From: Candidatus Aphodousia gallistercoris | GTDB lineage: Bacteria > Pseudomonadota > Gammaproteobacteria > Burkholderiales > Burkholderiaceae_F | Reading direction: 5' to 3' | DNA: 64,000 bases | Assembly: GCA_018714185.1 (NCBI GenBank) | Contig: DVNT01000007.1 | Span: forward strand, 1 to 64,000 | Shown here: positions 47,582-49,630 of the stretch, piece by piece | Numbering within the stretch: the first letter of the stretch is position 1 | How the letters are laid out: every line of letters begins with the position of its first letter | Translations under genes and position numbers: made by a program | The notes under the pieces: model-generated | Seen by the model: only the letters and a program-made list of their open reading frames with translations | What the model was told of the DNA's origin: nothing | Database searches by the model: none

Positions 47582-49630
47582 ATGTCAAAACACGAATCTT
47601 TAGACGTCCGTGTTGCGATCGATGAAGATAACCCCGCGTTGGTTCGCAATGAAGCGCTTTGCGTTAATTGCTCCATGTGCCGTCAGGTTTGCGAGGATTA
47701 CATCGGAGTGCACGGGCACTACCAGCTCGAAAAAACCGGCGACCGTGCCATTTGCGTGCATTGCGGCCAGTGCATCAATGTTTGCCCGACCGGTAGCCTG
47801 TTTGCCCGACCGGAATACCCGGATGTTCAAAAGGCAATCGACGATCCGCAAGCTATTGTTGTCTTTTCGACTTCACCGGCCGTGCGCGTTGCCTTGGCGG
47901 AAGCGTTCGGGGAAGAAGCCGGCGGCTTCAACGAAGGCAAGATGGTCGGCTTGTTGCGTGCTCTCGGAGCCGATTATGTTCTCGATACCAATTTCAGCGC
48001 TGACTTGACCATTATGGAAGAGGCCAGCGAGCTTGTTGAACGCTTGACCAAGCACACCGGCCCCTTGCCGCAATTTACGAGCTGCTGCCCGGCTTGGGTG
48101 AAATATGCCGAAACTTTCCACCCGGAAATGCTGGCCAATATTTCGACGGCCAAAAGCCCGATCGGCATGCAAGGCCCTACGGTAAAGACCTACTTTGCCA
48201 AACAGCAATCCTTGGACGCGAGAAAGATCGTTCATGTTGCCGTCACGCCCTGTACGGCGAAAAAATTTGAAATTCGCCGCGAAGAGCTTGCCGGCGCAGC
48301 CAAGTTTTACGGCATTGAAGGTATGCGCGATACCGACTATGTCATTACGACGACCGAACTCGCCCAGTGGGCCCAAGAAAAGGGCCTTGCCTTTGACAGC
48401 ATCCAAGATAGCTCCTTTGACCGTCTCATGGGTGAAGGCTCCGGCGCCGGCGTCATCTTCGGCAACACCGGCGGCGTGATGGAAGCGGCCTTGCGCACGG
48501 CCTACTACTTGGTCACCGGCCAAAGAGCACCCGAATCATTTTACGATCTTGAACCGGTTCGCGGTCTCACGGACACAAAGGAAGCAAGCGTTCAGATCGG
48601 CGATCTCACCTTAAAGGTCGCTGTTGTTTACGGTACGGCCAATGCCGGCCGCCTGATCGAACAGATCCAAAAGGGTGAAAAGCAATACCACTTCGTTGAG
48701 GTCATGACGTGCCCGGGCGGCTGCATCAGCGGCGGCGGCCAACCCAAGCTCAACTGGGGACAAGAAGACAGCACGCGCCAGTTGCGCATTGACGCGCTTT
48801 ACAAACGCGACAGCGCCATGAGCACTGAACACCGTACCAGCTACGAAAACGAAGAAATTAAAGCACTGTACAAAACCTTTTACGGAAAACCGCTTTCCGA
48901 ATTGGCGGAAAGCCTTTTACACACCCACTACTTGGACCGTAGCGGGGATTTAGGAGAAAAGAAGATGAAATATCGCTGCAAAGTTTGTGGCTACATCCAT
49001 GAATGCGAAGGCCCCTTGCCTGCCGACTACATTTGCCCGATCTGCAAAAAGGGCGCCGAATTCTTTGAACCGGTTGAAGAAGCCTCCGGCAAAGACGGCA
49101 AGTTGGCCGGCACGAAGACTGAAAAGAATTTGATGACCGCCTTCGCCGGTGAATCGCAAGCTCGCAACAAGTACACCTACTTTGCTGAAGTAGCCAAGCG
49201 CGAAGGATACGAACAAATCGCGGCTATCTTCTTGCAAACTGCTCGCAACGAGCAAGAACACGCCCGCTTGTGGTGTGATGCCCTCGGCTGGATCGGTGAT
49301 ACGGCGGCCAACTTGGGCGCTGCCGCTGACGGCGAAAACTATGAATGGACCGACATGTACGACGGCTTTGCCAAGGACGCTGATGCCGAAGGCTTCACGG
49401 AATTGGCTGCCAAGTTCCGCGCCGTGGCCGCCATTGAAAAGGCTCACGAAGAACGCTATCGCAAGCTTTTGAACAATGTTCAAATGAAGCAAGTGTTCGA
49501 AAAAGCCGGCCAAGCCATGTGGGAATGCCGCATCTGCGGTCACTTGGTCATGGGCGTTAAGGCTCCGGAAGTGTGCCCGGTTTGCGGCTACGCTCAGAGC
49601 TACTTTGAAGTGCGTGCTGAAAACTACTAA
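47582..49630 (+). CDS. [FeFe]-hydrogenase fused to rubredoxin-rubrerythrin-rubredoxin
   Basis: A 682-residue composite enzyme. Residues 20-75 hold two ferredoxin clusters (C27/30/33/37 and C58/61/64/68). The H-cluster domain (~90-450) has L1 TSCCPAW (166-172, proton-relay Cys169), L2 TPCTAKKFE (222-230, Thr for the usual Met) and L3 EVMTCPGGCISGGGQP (373-388). These resemble group B, M2-type hydrogenases. Residues 463-490 are a rubredoxin (CKVC..CPIC), ~515-635 a rubrerythrin four-helix diiron domain (E524, E536, E557xxH560, E619xxH622), and 649-668 a second rubredoxin (CRIC..CPVC). Electrons from H2 or ferredoxin could directly reduce peroxide. Maturases HydEFG are not in the window. The ATG at 47582 follows GGAGAG. 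Confidence 0.93.
   Translation: MSKHESLDVRVAIDEDNPALVRNEALCVNCSMCRQVCEDYIGVHGHYQLEKTGDRAICVHCGQCINVCPTGSLFARPEYPDVQKAIDDPQAIVVFSTSPAVRVALAEAFGEEAGGFNEGKMVGLLRALGADYVLDTNFSADLTIMEEASELVERLTKHTGPLPQFTSCCPAWVKYAETFHPEMLANISTAKSPIGMQGPTVKTYFAKQQSLDARKIVHVAVTPCTAKKFEIRREELAGAAKFYGIEGMRDTDYVITTTELAQWAQEKGLAFDSIQDSSFDRLMGEGSGAGVIFGNTGGVMEAALRTAYYLVTGQRAPESFYDLEPVRGLTDTKEASVQIGDLTLKVAVVYGTANAGRLIEQIQKGEKQYHFVEVMTCPGGCISGGGQPKLNWGQEDSTRQLRIDALYKRDSAMSTEHRTSYENEEIKALYKTFYGKPLSELAESLLHTHYLDRSGDLGEKKMKYRCKVCGYIHECEGPLPADYICPICKKGAEFFEPVEEASGKDGKLAGTKTEKNLMTAFAGESQARNKYTYFAEVAKREGYEQIAAIFLQTARNEQEHARLWCDALGWIGDTAANLGAAADGENYEWTDMYDGFAKDADAEGFTELAAKFRAVAAIEKAHEERYRKLLNNVQMKQVFEKAGQAMWECRICGHLVMGVKAPEVCPVCGYAQSYFEVRAENY
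48952..48967 (+). promoter_or_regulatory. Internal ribosome-binding site at the rubrerythrin junction
   Basis: AGGAG (48952-48956) lies 8 nt before an in-frame ATG at 48965 (Met462), exactly where the hydrogenase domain ends (LLHTHYLDRSGDLGE) and the rubredoxin begins (MKYRCKVCGY). Initiation here would make a free 221-residue rubredoxin-rubrerythrin-rubredoxin protein in addition to the fusion. Confidence 0.65.

Follow-up and report, generated by a model that had tools for sequence, protein, structure and literature searches.

A betaproteobacterial HydR, a [FeFe]-hydrogenase-rubrerythrin fusion, with a conserved ribosome-binding sequence and predicted internal start codon at its seam

The locus described here raises the question of what a [FeFe]-hydrogenase joined to a rubrerythrin might do in a betaproteobacterium, and of whether the joined polypeptide is the only product of its gene. 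The gene lies in the window, by which we mean the entire 64-kb stretch of DNA that was analysed. A sequence-only reading had described a single frame holding two ferredoxin clusters, an H-cluster domain, and a rubrerythrin between two rubredoxins, and this description was borne out by the frame, by Pfam, and by the motifs (Table 1). The open-frame reading of the window gave 682 uninterrupted codons with neither stop nor frameshift, and the frame between the H-domain and the rubredoxin was likewise intact in relatives.

Table 1. Positions of hydR, its encoded domains, and the seam elements in the window.
Feature	Position	Strand	Basis
AGGAG, Shine-Dalgarno-like, for the HydR start codon	47567..47571	+	sequence; predicted anti-SD pairing -7.4 kcal/mol
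hydR, [FeFe]-hydrogenase/rubredoxin/rubrerythrin/rubredoxin fusion, 682 aa, 75.4 kDa	47582..49630	+	frame, Pfam, NCBIfam, homologues
Two [4Fe-4S] ferredoxin-type clusters, Cys 27, 30, 33, 37 and 58, 61, 64, 68	47639..47821	+	Pfam, alignment
Fe_hyd_lg_C, H-cluster domain; L1 TSCCPAW, L2 TPCTAKKFE, L3 EVMTCPGGC	47855..48736	+	Pfam, alignment
Fe_hyd_SSU, iron hydrogenase small-subunit-like segment	48770..48940	+	Pfam
TTAGGAG, seam Shine-Dalgarno sequence	48950..48956	+	invariant in 17/17 family genes compared, the window's included
ATG (Met462), predicted internal start codon	48965..48967	+	start-codon, pairing and GGAG counts at seams
Predicted second product, free rubredoxin-rubrerythrin-rubredoxin, 221 aa, 24.8 kDa	48965..49630	+	inferred
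N-terminal rubredoxin of the rubrerythrin (Rbr) module, Cys 466, 469, 485, 488	48965..49081	+	profile matches, alignment
Rubrerythrin four-helix di-iron domain, ARNEQEH and AIEKAH motifs	49124..49471	+	profile matches, alignment
C-terminal rubredoxin RUBY_RBDX, Cys 649, 652, 665, 668	49520..49609	+	Pfam, alignment

Pfam placed the Fer4-type clusters within residues 23 to 80, Fe_hyd_lg_C at residues 92 to 385 (E 2e-88), Fe_hyd_SSU at 397 to 453, Rubrerythrin at 515 to 630, and RUBY_RBDX at 647 to 676. The rubredoxin-like stretch at approximately 462 to 500 was marked by DUF7130 (453 to 493) and a weak rubredoxin match (479 to 500). The protein scored 453.3 bits with TIGR02512, the model for group A [FeFe] hydrogenases, whose curated cut-off is 405.95, and was above the cut-off of the NCBIfam rubrerythrin model NF045767; it scored under the cut-offs of the NCBIfam A6, clostridial, and B1 hydrogenase models. 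At the sequence level, the eight ferredoxin Cys, the eight rubredoxin Cys, the H-cluster ligands Cys 169, 224, 377, and 381, and the Glu and His of ARNEQEH and AIEKAH (two ExxH motifs) were invariant across 40 aligned sequences. A monomer structure model had low confidence in the rubrerythrin four-helix part, with stretches below 50, and its helices there were too uncertain to serve as evidence.

The architecture is already known as that of HydR, named by Taylor et al. 2025, who characterized CperHydR of Clostridium perfringens as an H2-dependent H2O2 reductase and credited the clostridial survey of Calusinska et al. 2010 with first proposing the chimera (PMC11926857). Relative to the literature searched, what is new is the betaproteobacterial host family and the seam feature described below. 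In the window protein, a single unbroken chain holds the hydrogenase and the rubrerythrin along with the L1, L2, and L3 motifs, and its L2 fits the HydR pattern M/T-PCxxKxxE; its L3 begins EVMTC, with Thr replacing the Ala of the published motif (PMC11926857). It is like CperHydR in domain order, cofactor set, and an identical L2 motif (TPCTAKKFE), but belongs to another phylum. CperHydR has a near-complete bias toward H2 oxidation and reduced H2O2 with H2 (PMC11926857). The uptake bias has been tied to the Thr and Ala of L2, which are proposed to tune both CperHydR and CpII, an H2-uptake [FeFe] hydrogenase of Clostridium pasteurianum that has the same two residues but is described without a rubrerythrin module (PMC11926857).

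By homology, the window protein is most likely a HydR that works as CperHydR does, in H2-driven reduction of H2O2. Extrapolating from the CperHydR experiments, H2 would be split at the H-cluster, the electrons would reach the di-iron site by way of the two [4Fe-4S] clusters and the rubredoxins, and H2O2 would be reduced to water there. The path from H2 to peroxide that the sequence-only reading envisaged has been shown experimentally in a homologue that shares both its domain order and its L2 motif with the window protein (PMC11926857). The same reading called the enzyme self-protecting, and in the sense of oxygen tolerance this finds no support, as exposure to O2 costs CperHydR its hydrogenase activity to the same degree as it does a Clostridium acetobutylicum enzyme (PMC11926857). 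The isolated rubrerythrin part of CperHydR reduces H2O2 and is apparently stable in air, and the full protein has been modelled as a homodimer formed via the rubrerythrin domain (PMC11926857). This was the only biochemical study of HydR found in the literature searched, and it concerns a single clostridial species; the word "internal" is absent from its main text.

Homologues at E ≤ 0.001 comprised 7944 of 7997 scored candidates. The best 120 of the 7944, among them the window's own protein, all covered at least 99% of the query, and those of the 120 with a named organism came from Clostridium, Lachnospiraceae, Oscillospiraceae, and other Bacillota at 66 to 67% identity. In the window's family, 18 of 67 genomes had a match at E ≤ 1e-150, of which 17 were full length and one (L153) lacked the N-terminal rubredoxin. 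HydR forms having neither this rubredoxin nor the seam Met were seen in L153, P0020, and P0114. Eight of nine genomes of the genus carry a full-length hydR, the exception being G006. Since the G008 gene is letter-for-letter the hydR of Parasutterella secunda An562, an isolate that belongs to the betaproteobacterial Sutterellaceae, the window genome likely belongs to the genus Parasutterella, as judged from sequence. The architecture that the sequence-only reading proposed to seek in Sutterellaceae is present there in this isolate, and it occurs in 18 genomes of the window's family. Its companion remark that [FeFe]-hydrogenases are rare in proteobacteria was considered over genomes of the window's family and order. 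We found no report of HydR in Sutterellaceae in the literature searched, and an earlier notice in Calusinska et al. 2010 is possible. In a 2025 survey, Parasutterella figures among inferred hydrogenotrophs (PMC12911397), and a term search of a 2022 hydrogenase review gave no hit for "rubrerythrin" (PMC8924675).

In the genus, hydR is flanked by fbp on one side and mscL on the other; within the short flanks, pepN or fbp, plus mscL or trmB, adjoin it, with the L009 locus contributing its upstream flank only. An assembly artefact or chance fusion was ruled out, as relatives and the isolate carry the identical fusion and gene order is conserved. The case that had been named as refuting, in which relatives always encode two separate proteins, did not occur, though in some Bacillota the two are encoded by unfused neighbouring genes. 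When the hydrogenase part was placed in a tree, rooted at the midpoint, the 18 family genes formed one group (support 100/98) among Bacillota and Spirochaetales sequences, and the family's hydR was likely acquired by transfer from Bacillota.

Maturation of the window's hydrogenase is plausible. The hydEFG set that the sequence-only reading suggested looking for was recovered in part: HydG is present in the window's genome (G000), and its assembly, which is 87% complete, yielded neither HydE nor HydF, yet both were above cut-off in all eight congeners. In seven of these eight, hydE and hydF share one contig near a second hydrogenase-like frame of 475 to 497 residues; G001 has this frame on a different contig from hydE/hydF. 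The second frame is missing from the window's assembly too, and a single assembly gap would account for the absence of all three. Six congeners (G001, G003, G004, G005, G007, and G008) have another two or three frames resembling [FeFe]-hydrogenases (612 to 635 and 483 to 497 residues), and these were not found in the window's assembly.

The sequence-only reading overlooked a conserved ribosome-binding sequence and start codon within hydR. Directly before the first rubredoxin stands TTAGGAG-N8-ATG (48950 to 48967), the sole match to this pattern in the window, where 0.08 were expected. We compared 32 distinct fused genes, 18 from the window's family and 14 others, having dropped L001 and L022 before counting as identical to L002 and L007, respectively. 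Thirty of the 32 (17 and 13) have a seam rubredoxin; L153 and L035 were excluded from the seam counts because they have none. A start codon lies within eight residues before the rubredoxin at every one of the 30 seams (29 ATG, and GTG in L072), and the distance from the LHT motif of the hydrogenase to the rubredoxin ranges from 15 to 45 residues among the 30 genes and from 15 to 17 in the family. GGAG was found 4 to 11 nt upstream at 28 of the 30 seams versus 18 of 531 other in-frame internal ATGs in the 32 fused genes; L028 has AGGA instead, and L034 has no core. In 29 of the 30, the start codon follows the SD core by 6 to 11 nt. At each of ten other Met columns, kept in at least 20 genes, GGAG occurred 0 to 3 times, and at the less conserved Met column 111 it preceded 6 of 12 ATGs.

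The predicted pairing energy at the seam is -7.3 kcal/mol versus -7.4 at the gene's own start. The seam SD was the strongest of all internal ATGs in 18 of the 30 genes and among the top two in 28, and another internal ATG with an equal or stronger predicted SD was present in 12. Openness of the mRNA at the seam is modestly above the gene average (mean z 0.92). Among the best 120 of the 7944 database proteins, the rubredoxin is present in 118, and in 117 of the 118 a Met precedes it by no more than eight residues, P0014 being the one with the rubredoxin and no Met; the two rubredoxin-less proteins listed have no Met at the joint. The hydR seam brings together a start codon and a properly spaced SD sequence at a domain boundary. 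A separate internal promoter for the rubrerythrin half was rejected, as the sole promoter-like match in 47200 to 49800 sits on the opposite strand and shuffled sequences give 1.5. No report of an internal translation start in HydR was found in the literature searched.

TTAGGAG and the ATG are nucleotide-invariant in all 17 full-length family genes, and neighbouring positions vary. Codon 459 may be Glu, Val, or Asp, and its first base alone is kept, the G that ends GGAG. There are 263 columns with an invariant residue in these genes, of which 17 use a single codon: nine Glu, four Cys, two Phe, Leu457, and Gly458. The 143 invariant columns with four- or six-fold degenerate residues had a mean of 5.9 codon changes on the tree, and zero changes occurred only at residues 457 and 458, encoded by TTA and GGA, each of which is a minority codon in the family genes. 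The three-column span at 456 ranked first for synonymous constraint among 647 (0.61; sd 0.095), and the next non-overlapping one reached 0.27. Synonymous shuffles, done gene by gene, gave p < 0.05 in 5 of the 17 family genes with a combined p of 5e-7, a value to be read with the relatedness of these genes in mind, which makes tests assuming independence overstate significance. Outside the family, none of 13 genes was significant (combined p 0.14). The shuffle signal is weak because the seam residues by themselves tend to spell an SD sequence, and the column comparison on the tree was therefore used as the main test. Nucleotide conservation beyond the needs of the protein was thus found for the 17 family genes, and the 13 others were not significant by shuffle.

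The family offers one natural control for the seam, a single gene. L153, the only family gene without the seam rubredoxin, keeps Asp-Leu-Gly and spells it GAT CTC GGT. L035, a Bacilli fusion on another branch, has AAGGAAGGG and an ATG at its seam; at the corresponding place in L040 and L041, its unfused sisters, a stop codon is followed by AAGGAAGG and the ATG of a separate gene. In the unfused counterparts of HydR (L036, L037, L038, L040, and L041), hydrogenase and rubrerythrin are encoded by adjoining genes in either order, and in L036, L040, and L041 these neighbours have their own ribosome-binding sequence. Stand-alone rubredoxin-rubrerythrin genes of other bacteria have the domain set of the predicted second product and are similar to the C-terminal half of HydR. 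Two from Bacillota (L046 and L048), compared over residues 463 to 682, and one from a family relative (L012), compared over residues 454 to 682, show 71 to 72% identity. All three have a start codon and SD positioned where the hydR seam start is but, unlike hydR, no fused hydrogenase. The window's genome has a second, stand-alone rubrerythrin (G000:C55:17317-17850), 61% identical to residues 507 to 682.

From these sequence comparisons, we consider it likely that hydR, while encoding a probable H2-driven H2O2 reductase, also yields a separate rubredoxin-rubrerythrin from its conserved seam SD and start codon. Fresh initiation at Met462 would allow one mRNA to give the 75-kDa fusion and extra 25-kDa subunits of 221 residues. 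Given that the model of CperHydR is a homodimer held together by the rubrerythrin domain, such free subunits may pair with one another or with HydR, giving mixed dimers or a free peroxidase pool running on other reductants. The extra subunits would represent added peroxidase capacity, fed by other rubredoxin reductants, which would stay active once O2 destroys the H-cluster. Genes of comparable output are known. Both sctQ/yscQ (PMC4295842) and cas8b, the source of Cas11b (PMC11899642), are reported to give a full-length protein and a separately initiated C-terminal isoform working with the long form or its complex. The products in those two systems were demonstrated experimentally, whereas that of hydR is predicted from its gene, and the protein is a redox enzyme.

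HydR might instead be a fusion protein and nothing else, with the seam SD and ATG being relics of a separate downstream rubrerythrin gene that was read through at fusion. The unfused neighbours with their own ribosome-binding sequence make such capture plausible, and codon constraint was not significant outside the window's family. Relics would be expected to decay, however, and the two SD codons have undergone no change in 17 genes against the mean of 5.9, while the rubredoxin-less L153 uses other codons for the same residues; we therefore regard a mere relic as unlikely. It has also to be asked if the SD-like sequence could cause the ribosome to pause between the two halves and so aid folding of the hydrogenase, no start being involved. 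Its position at the domain boundary, where the structure model predicts a helix at residues 454 to 457 and a strand from 461, would suit a pause site. A pause requires no start codon, yet one is present at the proper distance past the SD core in all but one of the 30 seams, is once GTG, and is separated from the SD by residues that vary freely, so that we give a pause very little credence.

A different objection concerns the direction of electron flow rather than the seam. Reduced ferredoxin could feed the clusters, the enzyme would then evolve H2, and the rubrerythrin would be merely protective. The presence of ferredoxin-type clusters accords with this, but the strong H2-oxidation bias of CperHydR, its reduction of H2O2 with H2 (PMC11926857), and the identical uptake-tuning Thr and Ala in L2 of the window protein make it highly improbable. 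An H2-driven peroxide reductase with a second, internally initiated product is the reading that we retain.

If that start works, the view of HydR as a single product is incomplete, and in its native state the enzyme could be a mixed assembly that includes peroxidase subunits in excess. This would bear on HydR stoichiometry and oxygen sensitivity, and on the reading of recombinant preparations, in which the short form may be present. The retention of hydR in place across Parasutterella indicates that machinery for H2-driven peroxide removal extends past Bacillota, and the gene offers a simple test case of a fusion retaining both the fused and the free protein.

Possible seam starts were also seen in rubrerythrin fusions lacking a hydrogenase. 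Of 20 such frames, 14 had an ATG and SD core, but it is doubtful that the upstream part is coding in at least L045, L047, and L059; the Pfam check in this set covered L042, L053, L068, and L095. Eleven frames have a ferredoxin-like start, CTKDC[LI]CLYVCP, and of the ten that were scored, a set that leaves out L100, nine have the ATG and SD. These nine ferredoxin-like fusions are L042, L043, L050, L051, L056, L061, L064, L075, and L077, with L042 confirmed by Pfam; another, L080, has a seam ATG and no near SD. On balance we favour a broader proposal for hydR, in which a ribosome-binding site captured when the genes fused would have been kept by selection, so that every mRNA gives both the H2-driven peroxide reductase and free rubredoxin-rubrerythrin subunits that pair with it; peroxide removal could then draw on H2 while the hydrogenase is alive and on other reductants once oxygen has inactivated it. 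Because such a seam start recurs in ferredoxin-type rubrerythrin fusions, the peroxidases of anaerobes may share this design in general. None of the four flavin reductase-like fusions (L055, L057, L067, and L068, the last by Pfam) has a seam ATG, and L067 has GTG behind GGAG. Approximately 490 further residues lie upstream of the rubredoxin-rubrerythrin in L095 (2534-4648) and in L101, those of L095 being glutamate-synthase-like by Pfam; L095 has a seam ATG with AGGA, and L101 is without.

Elsewhere in the window, the minus strand at 41819 to 43186 carries a TnpB-like frame with OrfB_IS605 and Cas12f1-like TNB domains. On the plus strand, at approximately 53340 to 53487, the translation GLDGGVLVDTPAVVR... 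resembles by eye the C-terminal end of this frame, and the stretch may be what is left of an element of the TnpB kind, or an end element of one.
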